NCBI RefSeq assembly: GCF_017837635.1 | Contig: NZ_JAGJRS010000015.1 | Span: forward strand, 1-64,000 | Length of the DNA stretch: 64,000 nt | From: Frateuria flava | Lineage (GTDB): Bacteria; Pseudomonadota; Gammaproteobacteria; Xanthomonadales; Rhodanobacteraceae | Direction of reading: 5' to 3' | Part shown: piece by piece, positions 2,827 to 7,533 of the stretch | Layout of the letters: every line of letters begins with the position of its first letter | Position numbering within the stretch: the first letter of the stretch is position 1 | The notes under the pieces: model-generated | What the model was told of the DNA's origin: nothing | Databases searched by the model: none | What the model saw: the letters and a program-made list of their open reading frames with translations, nothing else | Position numbers and translations under genes: made by a program

Positions 2827-3129
2827 ATGTCCGAGTTCGCCCGCTTCCGCGACTTCTACCCGTATTACCTCAGCGAACACCGCAATCCCGCCTGCCGCCG
2901 GTTGCACTTCGCCGGCAGCACGCTGGTGCTGCTGGTGATCGCCGTGGCGATCACGACACGCGACGCGCGCTGGCTGTGGCTGGCGCCGCTGGCCGGCTAC
3001 GGCTTCGCCTGGATCGGCCACTTCGTGTTCGAGAAGAACCGCCCGGCGACGTTCCGCCATCCGTTCTACAGCCTGGCTGGCGACTGGGTGATGTATTGGG
3101 ACATCCTGCGCGGCCGCCAGCGGATGTGA
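2827..3129 (+). CDS. Small DUF962/Mpo1-like membrane protein
   Basis: 100 residues with two hydrophobic segments (about residues 29-47 and 50-66) and the conserved pattern of the DUF962/Mpo1 family: FYPYYLSEHRNPACRRLHFAG at the N-terminus, GYGFAWIGHFVFEKNRPATF in the middle and HPFYSLAGDWVM near the end. Yeast Mpo1 is an iron-dependent dioxygenase that alpha-oxidises 2-hydroxy fatty acids; the conserved His residues here suggest similar metal binding, but bacterial short forms are uncharacterised. Located between a REP pair and the convergent response regulator gene. Confidence 0.8.
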   Translation: MSEFARFRDFYPYYLSEHRNPACRRLHFAGSTLVLLVIAVAITTRDARWLWLAPLAGYGFAWIGHFVFEKNRPATFRHPFYSLAGDWVMYWDILRGRQRM

Positions 3130-3167
3130 TTCCAGGTGTGCGGCGCGTTCGCAGGGGCGCCCCTGGA

Positions 3168-4184
3168 TCAGGCGCCCAGCGCCTGGTCCTGCTCGCCGAG
3201 CCAGTCGCGGTAGTTGCGCAGCTTGCCGAGCTGGAAGCGCGAGACGTCCTCGATCAGCGCCAGGTGATACCACTGCTCGCCGCGCACCGTCACCGCCGGG
3301 TGCAGCAGCGCTTCCACATCGCCGATGCCCTCGCGGTAGTAGCCGTCGCCCTCGCCGAACCACGGCAGCCGGTCGCCCTCGCGCAGCGCGGCCAGCAGTT
3401 CGGGCGGGGCGCCCAGGTCGCTGGCGATCTCGTAGTGCGCGCGCAGGTCCTCGTCGGTCTGGATCAGCACGAACCGCCCGCGGCCGCGCTCGTCCAGCAA
3501 CAGCATGCCGGTCGGGTTGACGTGCAGGTAGCACTCCACCGCCGGGAAATCGCCGACCAGCCCGCGGAACGCCTGCTGGAACGCCTTGTCGCGCAGGAAG
3601 CGCACATTGCCCAGCGCCAGCGCCTCGGCGACGAAGCCGCCCACGCGCTCGAAGTAGCGCCGCTGCAACGCGCGGATGCCCAACTGCAGCTTGTCGATCG
3701 CCTGCGGATCGCTCTTGCGGATGAAGCGGTCGATCACGCCGGCGTTGAACGCTTCGATCGCGGTGCAGTCGTCGGCGGTACCGGTGAGCAGGATCTTGCC
3801 GATGTGCGGGTTGGCCAGTTCCCGGCAGAACGCGATGCCGTCCATCTCCGGCATGGTCAGGTCGACCACCACGACCGAGACCTCGGCGAAACGCTCCGGG
3901 TCGAACATCACCCGGTGGATCGAGTCGATGTCCAGCGCGACCAGTTCGCGCGTCTGCGAGGAGCGGTCCTTCCAGTGGTACATCCAGCCGCCACCGGGCA
4001 CCGCGCGGATGCCATGGCTGCCCAGTTCGGCCAGCGCCCGGCGTGGCGAGCTGTAGCTGCGCAGGCGCAGGCTCGGGTCGAGCAGCAGCGGCATGCTGTC
4101 GAGGTACTTCTCGTGGTCGTCCACCAGCAGCGTGGTGGTGGGGAAGTGGAACGGCAGGATGTCGCCGTGGAAGTCGATGCTCAT
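3168..4184 (-). CDS. Response regulator, LqsR-like (non-DNA-binding output)
   Basis: 338 residues. An N-terminal receiver domain starts at LLVDDHEKYLDSM (acidic pair D22/D23). The phosphoacceptor in VVVVDLTMPEMDG is Asp108, unusually late because of an insertion of about 40 residues after the acidic pocket; IGKILLTGTADD and FIRKSD supply the Thr and Lys of the active site. The ~160-residue C-terminal part has no helix-turn-helix, GGDEF or HD motif. Size, late Asp and unusual output resemble Legionella LqsR, whose phosphoacceptor I recall as D108. The start overlaps the kinase stop by 4 bp (ATGA), so the two are translationally coupled. Confidence 0.8.
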   Translation of the reverse strand: MSIDFHGDILPFHFPTTTLLVDDHEKYLDSMPLLLDPSLRLRSYSSPRRALAELGSHGIRAVPGGGWMYHWKDRSSQTRELVALDIDSIHRVMFDPERFAEVSVVVVDLTMPEMDGIAFCRELANPHIGKILLTGTADDCTAIEAFNAGVIDRFIRKSDPQAIDKLQLGIRALQRRYFERVGGFVAEALALGNVRFLRDKAFQQAFRGLVGDFPAVECYLHVNPTGMLLLDERGRGRFVLIQTDEDLRAHYEIASDLGAPPELLAALREGDRLPWFGEGDGYYREGIGDVEALLHPAVTVRGEQWYHLALIEDVSRFQLGKLRNYRDWLGEQDQALGA

Positions 4185-5545
4185 GCCGAAAGTCCCTGTC
4201 CAGATGGCACGTATGGCGGAAATGTCACGAAGAATTCGGTGTATTCGCCCCAGCGCGAGCGGCAGCTGATGCGCCCGCCCATGCGTTCGACGGCGCTCTG
4301 CGAGAAGGCCAGGCCGATGCCCAGTCCGGTGCCGTCCCGCCCGTCGCTGTGGGAATAAAAGCGGTTGAAGATGCGCGGCAGCACGTCGGGCGGGATGCCC
4401 GGTCCGGTGTCGCGCACGCGGATGCAGTGGCCGGCGGCGTCGCTGTCCAGGCTCACCAGGATCTCGCCCTTGCCGGCACGACCGGTGTGGAACAGCGCGT
4501 TGCGCAGCAGGTTGAAAAGCACGTGGGTGAGCAGCGTCTCCGAGCCCACCAGCACGAAGTCGGTCGGTGCGGTCGACAACTGTACGCGCTCGCGCTCGGC
4601 CTGCGAGGCGTACGGATAGCGTGCCAGCGCCTGTACCACGCAGGCGCGCGCGTGCAGCGGCTCGAACTGCAGGGTGCCCATCGGCTTGGCCGCCATGAGC
4701 AGCATGTCGATCACGGTGTGCGCGTGGTTGACCTCGTGCTCGATCACAGCGATGCCGCGCTGCAGCGCCTGCAGGTGCGGCCCGCGCAGCGCGGCCACCG
4801 GCAGCCCGGCACGCTCGGCCACGCGGTGGCTCTCCAGCAGGTTGGGCAGGTAGCGGCCGATCGCGCGCCCGGCCATCTGCACCGAACCCAGCGGCGTGCG
4901 CAGCTCGTGCGCGATGTTGTTGGAGGCGCCGATCAGCGCCTTGACCTTGGCCTCGTCGGCGAATTTCTGCGACAGACTGGCCAGCGGGCCCAGGATCAGC
5001 GTCAGCGCCAGCACCGGCGCGTACTGCAGCAGCGCGTGCCACGGCCAGGCCTCGTGCGGCCCGAGCTGGAACGCCAGCGCGGCCAGCGCCGTGCCCACGG
5101 TGCAGATCAGCGCGAAGCTCGCCAGGTCGAACAGCATCATCGTGATGAAGATCGAGAACAGGTGCGCGCCCATCCAGACAATCGTGCCGCCGTTGCGCAG
5201 CAACAGGTAACCGAAGAAGAACGGCAGCACGAAGGTGATCACCGCGTACCAGTACGGCGGCAGCCACGGCTTGAACGCGCGCGGCCACCAGCGCTGCAGG
5301 GCCAGCGGCAACAGCGCCACGCAACCGGCCACGTGCAGCCCCAGGTTGGTGTAGGGCTGGGGCAGCACGTATGTCCACAGGAACCAGTACAGCGGCATGA
5401 ACAGGCCGCCGAGCAGGCACATCACCGGCATCATCGGCTGCGAGTAGCGCGCCCGGGTGAACATCGCGTTGTCCACGCGCCGCCGTAGCTGCTGCAGCCG
5501 CGAACGGCCGCGGTGCGGTGGGTGGGTCATCCCTGGCGTCGACAT
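4181..5545 (-). CDS. CqsS/LqsS-type membrane sensor histidine kinase
   Basis: 454 residues. Six hydrophobic segments lie between about residues 38 and 190, then a dimerisation/H-box with His213 in NNIAHELRTPLGS, and a full HATPase domain (N box LFNLLRNALFH, G1 RDTGPGIPP, G2 GTGLGIGLAFS). The membrane part contains WTYVLPQPYTNLGL and VLPFFFGYLLLRN followed by TIVWMGAHLFSIF, patterns I recognise from Vibrio CqsS and Legionella LqsS, receptors for alpha-hydroxyketone autoinducers. Unlike CqsS it has no C-terminal receiver; the regulator is a separate overlapping gene. No cqsA/lqsA-type synthase lies in the window. An alternative start is Met6 at 5530. Confidence 0.85.
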   Translation of the reverse strand: MSTPGMTHPPHRGRSRLQQLRRRVDNAMFTRARYSQPMMPVMCLLGGLFMPLYWFLWTYVLPQPYTNLGLHVAGCVALLPLALQRWWPRAFKPWLPPYWYAVITFVLPFFFGYLLLRNGGTIVWMGAHLFSIFITMMLFDLASFALICTVGTALAALAFQLGPHEAWPWHALLQYAPVLALTLILGPLASLSQKFADEAKVKALIGASNNIAHELRTPLGSVQMAGRAIGRYLPNLLESHRVAERAGLPVAALRGPHLQALQRGIAVIEHEVNHAHTVIDMLLMAAKPMGTLQFEPLHARACVVQALARYPYASQAERERVQLSTAPTDFVLVGSETLLTHVLFNLLRNALFHTGRAGKGEILVSLDSDAAGHCIRVRDTGPGIPPDVLPRIFNRFYSHSDGRDGTGLGIGLAFSQSAVERMGGRISCRSRWGEYTEFFVTFPPYVPSGQGLSA

Positions 5546-5569: not shown

Positions 5570-5965
5570 TTACCGGTATTGCTGGTGACAGGACTGGCAG
5601 GCGTCACCGACCGGCTTGATCGACTGGGCCAGCGCCGCGCAATCGGTCGGATGCGCCTGCACCGCATTCTGCAGTGCCGTGCGCAGGCGGCCGGAATGGT
5701 CCAGGAAGTCCTGCTCGGCGCCGGGGAAGGCGACGGGGATGTCCGATGCGGTCGACTGCAGGCGCAGCAGGTGGTCATTGACCTGCGCGGCGTCGCATTG
5801 CCTGGTCTTGACTGCCTGGCCGAGCGCGCCCATGTGATGGCCCATCACCGTCATCACCGCGTGCGGCATCGGGTTGCGATTGCCCAACGCCTTCATGGCA
5901 AACACGGTGCCGAGGACGCCGATGACCAGGCCGAGCAGGATCAGGAGTGCGGAACGTGCATTCAT
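5570..5965 (-). CDS. Class II c-type cytochrome-like protein (C-terminal CxxCH)
   Basis: 131 residues. The N-terminus (MNARSALLILLGLVIGVLGT) is an uncleaved anchor or a signal peptide for export. The C-terminus ends GDACQSCHQQYR, a heme-attachment CxxCH at the extreme end as in cytochromes c' and c556. The predicted helices, with MGHHMGALGQ near the N-terminus, fit a four-helix bundle in which a Met or His could be the sixth ligand. A longer reading from 6082 exists, but its first 39 codons do not look like protein; the start at 5965 directly precedes the signal sequence. It lies only 24 bp upstream of the CqsS-like kinase in the same direction, implying one operon. Confidence 0.75.
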   Translation of the reverse strand: MNARSALLILLGLVIGVLGTVFAMKALGNRNPMPHAVMTVMGHHMGALGQAVKTRQCDAAQVNDHLLRLQSTASDIPVAFPGAEQDFLDHSGRLRTALQNAVQAHPTDCAALAQSIKPVGDACQSCHQQYR

Positions 5966-6102
5966 GGTGGACCGCCCTTGAAGAGTGTGAAGGGCCAGAA
6001 TACCGAAGCATCGACGCCTTTCGTAGCCGTAAAATGGGCTTTTACGCGTAGGAAACCGCACGCGATGGCAGGCAGCATCCACCCCGTCCCCGGGCAGGCC
6101 GC

Positions 6103-6888
6103 ATGAGCGGCCCGCATTACCCGGTCGAGCGCTTCGAGGGCGTCGAGCGCCTGTACGGCCGGGGCACTATCGAGCGTCTGATGAACGCCCATGTCTGCGT
6201 GATCGGCATCGGCGGGGTCGGCTCCTGGGCGGTCGAGGCGTTGGCGCGCAGCGGGGTGGGGCGGCTGACCCTGATCGATGCCGACGAGGTGTGCCTGTCC
6301 AACACCAACCGCCAGCTGCATGCGCTGGACGGCCAGTGGGGCAAGCCCAAGGTCGGCGTGATGGCCGAGCGCGCGCACGCGATCAACCCGCGCATCCGGC
6401 TGGAGGCGATCGAGCGCTTCCTCACCACGGCCTCGCTGGACGAGCTGCTCGATCGCGGCTACGACGTGGTGCTGGATGCCTGTGACGCCTTCCGCGTGAA
6501 GCTGGAGGCGATCGCCTGGTGCCGGCGGCGCAAGTTGCCGATGGTGACGGTCGGCTCGGCCGGCGGGCGCACCGATCCGACGCAGATCCGCGTGCGTGAC
6601 CTGTCGCGCACCGAGCACGATGCGATGTTCAGCCTGATCCGCAAGAAGCTTCGGCAGGACTTCAACTTCCCGCGCAACCCGGATCGCTACTTCGGCGTGT
6701 CGGCGGTGTACTCGTTGCAGAACGTGCAATACCCGCAGCCGGATGGGAGCGTGTGCGGCTTGCGACCGCCGGGCGGGGATTCGCTCAACCTGGCTTGCGG
6801 CGGCGGCCTCGGGGCGGCGACGCACATCACCGGGGCGTTTGCGTTCGCGGCGGTGGGGAAAGTGCTGGAGAAAGTGCTGGAGAAGTAG
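6103..6888 (+). CDS. tcdA: tRNA threonylcarbamoyladenosine dehydratase
   Basis: 261 residues of the ThiF/MoeB/HesA E1-like family. It shows the ATP-binding GIGGVGSWAVEALARSGVG, the LIDADEVCLSNTNRQ motif with the catalytic Asp and Arg, and DACDAFRVKLEAIAWC. TcdA (CsdL/YgdL) cyclises t6A37 of ANN-decoding tRNAs to ct6A using ATP, usually with the CsdA-CsdE sulfur relay. A Sua5-type t6A gene is at 53-54 kb. The last two codons and the stop (GAAGTAG) mark the left boundary of the 242-bp tandem repeat that follows. Confidence 0.93.
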   Translation: MSGPHYPVERFEGVERLYGRGTIERLMNAHVCVIGIGGVGSWAVEALARSGVGRLTLIDADEVCLSNTNRQLHALDGQWGKPKVGVMAERAHAINPRIRLEAIERFLTTASLDELLDRGYDVVLDACDAFRVKLEAIAWCRRRKLPMVTVGSAGGRTDPTQIRVRDLSRTEHDAMFSLIRKKLRQDFNFPRNPDRYFGVSAVYSLQNVQYPQPDGSVCGLRPPGGDSLNLACGGGLGAATHITGAFAFAAVGKVLEKVLEK

Positions 6889-7049: not shown

Positions 7050-7122
7050 CTACCACCCGATGTAATGCCCGCCGTTGATCGCCAGATTGGACCCGGTGAT
7101 CCGGCCAGCTTCGTCGCTGGTT
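7050..7122 (-). pseudogene. Ghost copy 1 of the phbB C-terminus
   Basis: The minus strand reads SDEAGRITGSNLAINGGHY then IGW and a TAG stop at 7050-7052, which matches the last ~22 residues of the intact neighbour (DEASWITGSNLAINGGHY, MGW). There is no start or upstream coding sequence; it is the tail of the duplicated 242-bp unit. Substitutions are few and the frame is intact, so the duplication is recent or homogenised by recombination. Confidence 0.85.
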
Positions 7123-7291
7123 GAAGTAGCCTTGCGGCTCGCTTGTCTTCCTCTCCCCTCCGGGGAGAGGATCGAGGTGAGGGGCCGGGGCTCGCGGGAA
7201 AGCCGGGTTTGAAAGCAGGCCCTTTTGCGACACTCCCGCAAGAGTGGCCCCTCACCCCAGCCCTCTCCCCGGTGGGGAGAGGGAGCCAGAG

Positions 7292-7364
7292 CTACCACCT
7301 CATGTAATCCCCGCCGTTGATCGCCAGATTGGACCCGGTGATCCGGCCAGCCTCGTCGCTGGTT
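7292..7364 (-). pseudogene. Ghost copy 2 of the phbB C-terminus
   Basis: The minus strand reads SDEAGRITGSNLAINGGDY then MRW and stop at 7292-7294. It shares GRITG with ghost copy 1 where the real gene has SWITG, so the two ghosts are closer to each other than to phbB. Like copy 1 it is a gene fragment without a start. Confidence 0.85.
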
Positions 7365-7533
7365 GAAGTAGCCTTGCGGCTCGCTTGTCTTCCTCTCCCC
7401 TCCGGGGAGAGGATCGAGGTGAGGGGCTGGGGCTCGCGGGAAAGCCGGGTTTGAAAGCAGGCCCTTTTGCGACACTCCCGCAAGAGTGGCCCCTCACTCC
7501 AGCCCTCTCCCCGGCGGGGAGAGGGAGCCAGAG

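Follow-up and report, generated by a model that had tools for sequence, protein, structure and literature searches.

A sensor kinase and regulator of the alpha-hydroxyketone (Lqs/Cqs) type without a synthase in Frateuria flava: a maintained and apparently re-tuned receiver

What does a bacterium listen to when it carries the receiving half of an alpha-hydroxyketone quorum sensing system, but no gene for the enzyme that makes the signal? This question is raised by a locus of Frateuria flava (Rhodanobacteraceae) located within positions 1 to 64,000 of contig NZ_JAGJRS010000015.1 (the whole of this 64,000-nucleotide stretch is referred to below as the window). Two intact overlapping genes at 3168–5545, on the minus strand, encode a CqsS/LqsS-type sensor kinase (LqsS) and an LqsR-family regulator (LqsR). 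The comparisons presented here indicate that the pair is a genuine receiver, whose sender was lost in the genus and which has been maintained and apparently re-tuned; it probably listens to something that the cell does not make itself.

Identity of the sensor kinase and the regulator

An earlier note on this DNA, made from the letters alone, recognised in the membrane part of the kinase two motifs known from CqsS and LqsS. Both were located in the protein, at residues 61–70 (LPQPYTNLGL) and 107–125 (LPFFF...TIVWM), where CqsS of Vibrio campbellii has FPQPYENLPLR and LPCFFFYMLLMNNWSNVWVM, respectively. Pfam analysis of the kinase detected HATPase_c over the cut-off and HisKA under it. An AlphaFold2 model placed six membrane helices ahead of the catalytic part (moderate confidence; mean predicted local distance difference test score, pLDDT, 66).

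A profile of the membrane part only (residues 36–195, built from 22 family rows) was compared with 481 open reading frames (ORFs), i.e. frames of at least 100 aa from four reference loci, seven kinase loci of the same genome and the window from base 6001, with E-values scaled to 1e6 targets. Only four of these were reported, all of the CqsS/LqsS type: V. campbellii CqsS (E 2e-27), a second Vibrio CqsS, a hybrid kinase of Paraburkholderia caribensis and LqsS of Cupriavidus. The identical four kinases were found (E 1e-17 to 1e-13) with a profile built solely from eight rows of receiver-only genomes, i.e. those with lqsS and lqsR but without a synthase gene. Both Vibrio kinases and the Cupriavidus kinase adjoin genes of CqsA-family synthases (580–697 bits; cut-off 428). 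Since the membrane-only profile finds CqsS-type kinases, these motifs reflect real homology; the membrane domain is, judged by these matches, homologous to that of CqsS, and an unrelated kinase with six transmembrane helices was ruled out. An NCBIfam search with the kinase gave sub-threshold matches only, to the catalytic half (LuxN first), and a PDB search found no sequence relative of the membrane domain. The AlphaFold2 models were built from 11-row alignments and are of low (LqsR, pLDDT 57) or moderate (LqsS) confidence; therefore, no pocket geometry is claimed.

In a phmmer search of PDB sequences, residues 8–333 of the regulator matched LqsR of Legionella pneumophila (PDB 6SY9) with an E-value of 1.6e-48. 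The second-best match (E 3.7e-7) covered the receiver part only. The full-length similarity to 6SY9 includes the output domain, and it ruled out an unrelated regulator. Foldseek also placed 6SY9 first (E 2.6e-18, TM-score 0.36), with the low-confidence model as query. Response_reg was the sole Pfam domain, and no DNA-binding domain was detected by Pfam in the output part, which agrees with the non-DNA-binding output proposed before. The earlier note had also named Asp108 as the phosphoacceptor; this residue, as well as D22, D23, T134 and K157 (the acidic, Thr and Lys residues of a receiver), is invariant in 11/11 family LqsR rows, and D108 is described for LqsR in the portions consulted of two papers (PMC3376566, PMC5289986). 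Neither an unrelated six-helix kinase nor a regulator of a non-Lqs family, the findings that the earlier note had set against its own proposal, emerged from the sequence comparisons, and what it had observed is confirmed.

The lqsS and lqsR frames overlap by four bases (ATGA), and translational coupling of the two genes is therefore likely.

Absence of a synthase gene

No synthase gene is present beside the lqsS-lqsR pair, as had been noted from the sequence. The search was extended to the whole F. flava genome, rated 100% complete, using the NCBIfam model NF005526 (alpha-hydroxyketone-type autoinducer synthases; cut-off 428 bits), on which true synthases score 549–697 bits. Nothing exceeded the cut-off. 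The two sub-threshold matches (172 and 151 bits) are, by their own models, glycine C-acetyltransferase Kbl (665 bits) and BioF (449 bits). A CqsA-class synthase elsewhere in the genome was thereby ruled out; other synthase classes were not searched. As judged from its gene content, F. flava has Lqs-type reception but not a complete Lqs system, with no CqsA/LqsA synthase over the cut-off.

The place taken by lqsA in synthase-bearing relatives lies between lqsR and a gene for an Mpo1-like protein. An assembly gap hiding lqsA was ruled out, since lqsR and the Mpo1-like gene lie on one contig in 6/6 Frateuria genomes, the latter following within about 160 bp. In the window this junction has only 38 bp and is too small to hold a remnant of lqsA.

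Distribution and history of the locus in the family

The distribution of the system was examined in 233 genomes of the family (LqsR at E <= 1e-40, synthase at E <= 1e-90). LqsR was found in 49 of them and the synthase in 35, all among the 49; 34 synthases exceed the cut-off and one is a fragment in an 87%-complete genome. The synthase copy of one genome (G153) carries an in-frame TGA. The 14 genomes with LqsR but no synthase comprise Frateuria (6/6), the Dyella ginsengisoli group (4/4; code g4, including Dyella lutea and D. ginsengisoli) and four genomes with a more distant LqsR (two in g13, one each in g18 and g19). Two of these four genomes (G137, G185) match plasmid records in position, from Dyella sp. 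BiH032 and from Rhodanobacter thiooxydans.

In synthase-bearing genomes the gene order is TcdA-like, cytochrome c', lqsS, lqsR, lqsA, Mpo1-like, pirin, with flank genes missing or added in single rows. Complete lqsS-lqsR-lqsA sets occupy this shared site in Luteibacter, Pinirhizobacter, Mizugakiibacter, Oleiagrimonas and Tahibacter. In Tahibacter aquaticus (L123:6001-6195) the lqsR match ends after about residue 73 on the contig, which points to a possible split or interruption of the gene. At the same site, lqsS and lqsR only were found in 10/10 genomes of Frateuria and the ginsengisoli group. In 4/4 genomes of the latter, the Mpo1-like gene lies approximately 1.8 kb after lqsR, without lqsA between them. 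In the two loci of this group that were read (L049 and L050), the gap is filled by an M28-peptidase-like ORF (Pfam on L050 only), and a substitute synthase in the place of lqsA was rejected for them. Among 30 relatives whose TcdA region was examined, lqsS comes next in 14, the site is empty in 11 (the cytochrome c' gene being immediately followed by the Mpo1-like one) and neither arrangement was seen within the stretch in five.

Since lqs genes occupy one site in both deep and shallow genera, the full set would be ancestral, and the receiver-only and empty states would be losses. The missing synthase of F. flava appears from this comparison as a lineage-wide loss, complete sets being present at this position in further Rhodanobacteraceae genera. 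The receiver-only rows form one clade in both the LqsS tree (support 100/99) and the LqsR tree (95/98). The receptor trees thus join Frateuria with the ginsengisoli group, and a single loss of lqsA, rather than two, is favoured. A tree of HtpG and TcdA leaves the sister relation of these lineages unsettled, and the place of the receiver-only clade among synthase-bearing rows is not settled by the LqsR tree. Both the shared site and the LqsS tree speak against horizontal replacement of the pair.

Residues of the predicted ligand pocket

In V. cholerae CqsS, W104 and S107 are described as acting on the head group at C3, F160/F162/F166 as the head-group gatekeeper and C170 as acting on the tail (PMC3376566, in part). 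These positions were mapped through V. campbellii CqsS by counting from the phospho-His. In that protein Trp and Ser fall on 104 and 107, and Phe on the C170 position, in agreement with F175 of V. harveyi (PMC3285556, in part).

The 37 distinct family and reference sequences compared, which include two Tahibacter-type loci (L119, L123) with no synthase on the stretch fetched, have W, S/T, F and then C/F/S/I at positions 104, 107, 162 and 170. The residues are W, A, L, A in 6/6 Frateuria genomes and W, I, M, A in 4/4 of the ginsengisoli group; the replacements at 107 and 162 thus differ between the two lineages (A/L vs I/M). In the window kinase W104 is kept, S107 is replaced by Ala and F162 by Leu. 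According to the portion consulted of PMC3376566, L. pneumophila LqsS retains the equivalents of S107 and F162 (S114 and F168), but not of W104. Because these residues tune specificity, and S107 and W104 vary in some kinases of synthase-bearing genomes, the changes lower the case for binding of cholera or Legionella autoinducer 1 (CAI-1/LAI-1), but not that for homology with LqsS. In Frateuria, the side chains at 107, 162 and 170 are smaller, and the pocket may therefore accommodate a different head group or a longer tail.

Fifteen membrane columns and 30 kinase columns are invariant in 17 synthase-bearing rows. Frateuria changed four of the former (E66, R71, F78, F181) and none of the latter (Fisher test, p 0.009, with columns treated as independent and rows sharing one ancestor). 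The ginsengisoli group changed two membrane columns (F78, F181) and no kinase column.

Selection on the pair

All ten receiver-only genomes have an open lqsS frame, and lqsR is without an internal stop in 6/6 Frateuria and 4/4 ginsengisoli-group genomes. Mean ratios of nonsynonymous to synonymous change (dN/dS) were calculated by the Nei-Gojobori method, with a 95% codon bootstrap for the Frateuria membrane-domain value. For the membrane domain, kinase, receiver and output, respectively, these were 0.25 (0.16–0.37), 0.17, 0.05 and 0.15 in Frateuria (5 rows); 0.11, 0.09, 0.06 and 0.06 in the ginsengisoli group (3 rows); 0.13, 0.11, 0.03 and 0.06 in Luteibacter (6 rows); and 0.17, 0.10, 0.03 and 0.08 in Tahibacter (4 rows). 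The lqsS-lqsR pair of the receiver-only lineages is under purifying selection.

LqsR of Frateuria and the ginsengisoli group share 63% identity (TcdA 87%), and those of Luteibacter and Pinirhizobacter 90% (TcdA 78%). These identities indicate that LqsR went through a phase of rapid change in the receiver-only lineages.

Relatives outside the family and on plasmids

A class-wide draw of 369 genomes contained LqsR relatives (E <= 1e-30) in 25, of which 23 lie outside the family. A synthase over the cut-off was found in 4/23 (3/15 among those passing 90% completeness and 5% contamination). CqsS-type membrane parts occur beside LqsR in three synthase-bearing genomes (G425, G296 and G284, the last with two kinases) and six synthase-less ones (G292, G502, G407, G279, G271, G420). 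Eleven further kinases match only in or near the catalytic half; their sensors are therefore of another kind or cut short.

Phe is present at the F162 position in 4/4 kinases of synthase-bearing genomes vs 2/6 of synthase-less ones (V, T, G or S in the others), though these counts are small and include two genomes of one genus (G271, G420), and the distant alignments are less certain. Ser or Thr occupies the S107 position in 2/4 and 4/6, respectively. Loss of the gatekeeper without a synthase is, on these alignments, not confined to Frateuria.

Six gammaproteobacterial genomes of 1.3–2.6 Mb (G369, G324, G279, G284, G390, G470) encode two to four LqsR-like regulators each; among them only G284 has a synthase over the cut-off, and several of the partner kinases are without a CqsS-type membrane part.

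Pairs of lqsS and lqsR also occur on Dyella and Rhodanobacter plasmids (L220:8022-10278, L221:7878-10221, L222:8022-10242), where they adjoin PRTRC plasmid genes; their LqsR profile E-values are 1e-62 to 1e-67 and no synthase is annotated nearby. On plasmid 1 of Polaromonas sp. JS666 (L226:1-7308), an LqsS/LqsR pair adjoins BREX genes (brxC, DUF1788, DUF1819) and a gene for an HTH regulator. The annotation of this stretch shows no synthase, and the pair possibly places a defence system under control by cell density or by neighbours. PADLOC gave no match for four genes beside two of the plasmid pairs. On plasmid 2 of P. caribensis (L223:2346-5987), the CqsS-like hybrid kinase has Ala at the S107 position and adjoins a KASIII-like gene; the latter is a candidate for a signal synthase of another kind that works with such a receptor.

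Features of the locus and its neighbourhood

The positions of the features described above, and of the flanking genes, are summarized in Table 1. The family of the Mpo1-like protein (PF06127) is that of 2-hydroxy-palmitic acid dioxygenase, whose chemistry lies near hydroxylated acyl signals. This gene belongs to the chromosomal backbone, since it is present in empty-site genomes too. The gene at 6103..6888 presumably encodes a TcdA-like protein. Two short partial copies (26 aa) of a neighbouring short-chain dehydrogenase/reductase (SDR) gene lie at 7053–7372, downstream of its 3' end. An open frame at the start of the contig (124–450) resembles a fragment of an IS110-type transposase.

Table 1. 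Features of the lqsS-lqsR locus of F. flava (positions in the window).
Feature	Position	Strand	Basis or remark
lqsS-like sensor histidine kinase	4181..5545	(-)	454 aa; six predicted membrane helices and HisKA/HATPase
CqsS/LqsS-type membrane sensor domain, residues 36–195	4961..5440	(-)	membrane-only profile and AlphaFold2 helices
Thr66, His71, Leu78	5312..5350	(-)	E, R, F in each of 17 synthase-bearing rows
Ala127 (CqsS Ser107 position)	5165..5167	(-)	Ser/Thr in 17 synthase-bearing family and reference rows; role of S107, PMC3376566 (in part)
Leu181 (position of the gatekeeper Phe162 in CqsS)	5003..5005	(-)	Phe in every examined kinase from a synthase-bearing genome; role, PMC3376566 (in part)
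Ala189 (CqsS Cys170 position, for acyl-tail length)	4979..4981	(-)	role, PMC3285556 (in part)
His213, predicted phosphoacceptor in NNIAHELRTPLG	4907..4909	(-)	aligned with the H-box of Vibrio CqsS
lqsR-like response regulator	3168..4184	(-)	338 aa; receiver and LqsR-type output, no Pfam-detected DNA-binding domain
Asp108, predicted phosphoacceptor of LqsR	3861..3863	(-)	invariant in family rows; D108 of LqsR in the literature
lqsR/Mpo1-like junction	3130..3167	no strand	38 bp stop-to-stop; place of lqsA in synthase-bearing relatives
Mpo1-like flanking backbone gene (PF06127)	2827..3129	(+)	marks the syntenic site; convergent with lqsR
Cytochrome c' flanking backbone gene (PF01322)	5570..5965	(-)	ends 24 bp upstream of lqsS, same strand
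TcdA-like flanking backbone gene	6103..6888	(+)	used for locating the site in relatives

Discussion

On balance, we lean slightly towards regarding the locus as the receiver half of an alpha-hydroxyketone (Lqs/Cqs-type) system whose synthase was lost and whose receptor was re-tuned. We infer that lqsA was lost in an ancestor common to Frateuria and the D. ginsengisoli group, and that changes at the S107, F162 and C170 positions re-tuned the receptor after this loss. A hydrophobic ligand, not made by the cell with a CqsA/LqsA enzyme, would bind the six-helix domain of LqsS and shift its kinase/phosphatase balance; phosphate would then pass from His213 of LqsS to Asp108 of LqsR, which would act via its LqsR-type output domain and not by DNA binding. 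In L. pneumophila, as described in the portion consulted of PMC5289986, LAI-1 inhibits autophosphorylation of LqsS and LqsT, signalling converges on LqsR, and LqsR dimerises upon phosphorylation of Asp108. By analogy, a lipid-like ligand would shift the states of LqsS and its presence would be reported by phosphorylation of LqsR.

A more specific proposal is put forward tentatively, as one that may well not hold: that LqsS of the Frateuria/D. ginsengisoli lineage was re-specified after synthase loss to a ligand outside the known hydroxyketones (for example, a lipid signal with a bulkier head or a longer tail, from other soil bacteria or from eukaryotes), and that such a switch took place independently in further synthase-less lineages in which F162 was lost.

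Several observations weigh against re-tuning. The receiver-only rows are one clade, and synthase loss and pocket change therefore amount to a single evolutionary association in the family. The excess of changed membrane columns is not significant in the ginsengisoli group (2/15 vs 0/30, p 0.11), and the contrast is weaker when 14 family rows serve as the reference (8/43 vs 5/85, p 0.03, in Frateuria; 7/43 vs 8/85, p 0.20, in the ginsengisoli group). For the membrane domain, dN/dS is higher in Frateuria than in the other three groups, though still far from neutral, and the fast divergence of LqsR in receiver-only lineages means that part of the change may be a general loosening. Outside the family, S107 is no strict mark of a synthase (Glu and Asn stand in its place in the two kinases of G284) and the synthase-bearing G296 is without W104. 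F162 is kept in all four plasmid pairs examined.

The interpretation in the earlier note is partly supported: the types of sensor and regulator and the absence of a CqsA/LqsA-type synthase are borne out. Its further suggestion was that the pair may eavesdrop on other species. In the plain form of this idea, LqsS would bind ordinary CAI-1/LAI-1-class hydroxyketones from neighbours such as Luteibacter, and the residue changes would tune affinity or tail length only. Synthase-bearing relatives do exist in the family; W104, the PQPY motif and 11/15 invariant membrane columns are retained in Frateuria; and a small residue at 170 relaxes the tail preference of Vibrio CqsS (PMC3285556, in part). However, both S107 and F162 are changed in 10/10 receiver-only genomes of the family with a chromosomal pair, Frateuria has also lost the Glu and Arg of the PQPYEN...R motif, and L. 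pneumophila LqsS keeps S114 and F168 (PMC3376566, in part). The changes at positions for head-group and tail preference argue against an unmodified eavesdropper, which we regard as unlikely. It also seems rather improbable that the pair senses no lipid signal and instead reports membrane or metabolic state, or acts as a constitutive kinase/phosphatase. Change of pocket residues with retention of all 30 invariant kinase columns would fit such a reuse, as would the fast evolution of LqsR, but the membrane domain is under purifying selection (dN/dS 0.25 and 0.11) and 11–13 of its 15 invariant columns are retained.

The ligand might also be made by an unrelated synthase encoded elsewhere in the genome, in which case the system would still serve quorum sensing. 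The P. caribensis kinase beside a KASIII-like gene, in a stretch with no annotated CqsA-type gene, would fit such an arrangement, but the genes flanking lqsS-lqsR are backbone genes found at empty sites too, and the CqsA-family matches of the F. flava genome are Kbl and BioF, other synthase classes not having been searched; we consider this quite improbable. That the pair is a decaying remnant on its way to the empty site of other genera (11/30 relatives examined) is very hard to reconcile with stop-free lqsR in all ten receiver-only genomes, an lqsS frame in each of them and dN/dS far under 1 in every domain.

Like the Lqs system of L. pneumophila (LqsA, LqsS, LqsT, LqsR), the Frateuria locus has a separate LqsS-type kinase and an LqsR-type regulator with Asp108. 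Unlike it, Frateuria has no LqsA-type gene over the cut-off, lqsS runs into lqsR with a four-base overlap and without an intervening hdeD, and the S107 and F162 equivalents are changed. With Vibrio CqsA/CqsS it shares the six-helix sensor domain with PQPY and L-FF-Y-N-W motifs; CqsS there is a hybrid kinase with its own receiver (according to a review, in part) and cqsA adjoins, neither of which applies to Frateuria. The orthologous kinases and regulators of Luteibacter, Pinirhizobacter, Mizugakiibacter, Oleiagrimonas and Tahibacter, at the same chromosomal site, differ in being accompanied by a PRK07179 synthase and in having Ser/Thr at 107 and Phe at 162. LuxR solos, receptors of N-acyl homoserine lactones without a synthase, show that cytoplasmic receivers without senders are well known. 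Frateuria resembles them in keeping a receiver without its sender, but its receiver is of the hydroxyketone class and consists of a two-component pair with a membrane sensor, whereas LuxR solos are cytoplasmic transcription factors.

PhcX of Ralstonia solanacearum is likewise an LqsR-family regulator kept where lqsA was lost. However, the R. solanacearum complex has lost the Lqs sensor kinases together with the synthase, and phcX lies by phcBSRQ, whereas Frateuria keeps the kinase in the operon (PMC10653808, in part). Among the neighbours of the Frateuria kinase, which is as far as the search for PhcB extended, there is no phcB or phcR/phcQ; these neighbours are the Mpo1-like, pirin, cytochrome c' and TcdA-like genes. 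The same source counts LqsR orthologues in 310 representative proteobacterial genomes, including 87 Gammaproteobacteria; its main text, as far as consulted, names no Luteibacter, Dyella, Frateuria or Rhodanobacter, which the supplementary tables may list. Among titles and opening parts of abstracts, no account of a sender-less membrane hydroxyketone receptor was found, and none of the papers searched joined lqsR/lqsA with Luteibacter, hydroxyketone quorum sensing with Dyella, or CqsS with a receptor solo.

In the Rhodanobacteraceae, one locus thus occurs in three states (full, receiver-only and empty) and its specificity residues have been mapped; re-specification of a receptor after loss of the sender is therefore directly testable in these soil bacteria. 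If re-specification has indeed taken place here and, independently, in further lineages without a synthase, these would offer a natural series showing how a membrane quorum-sensing receptor changes its language.

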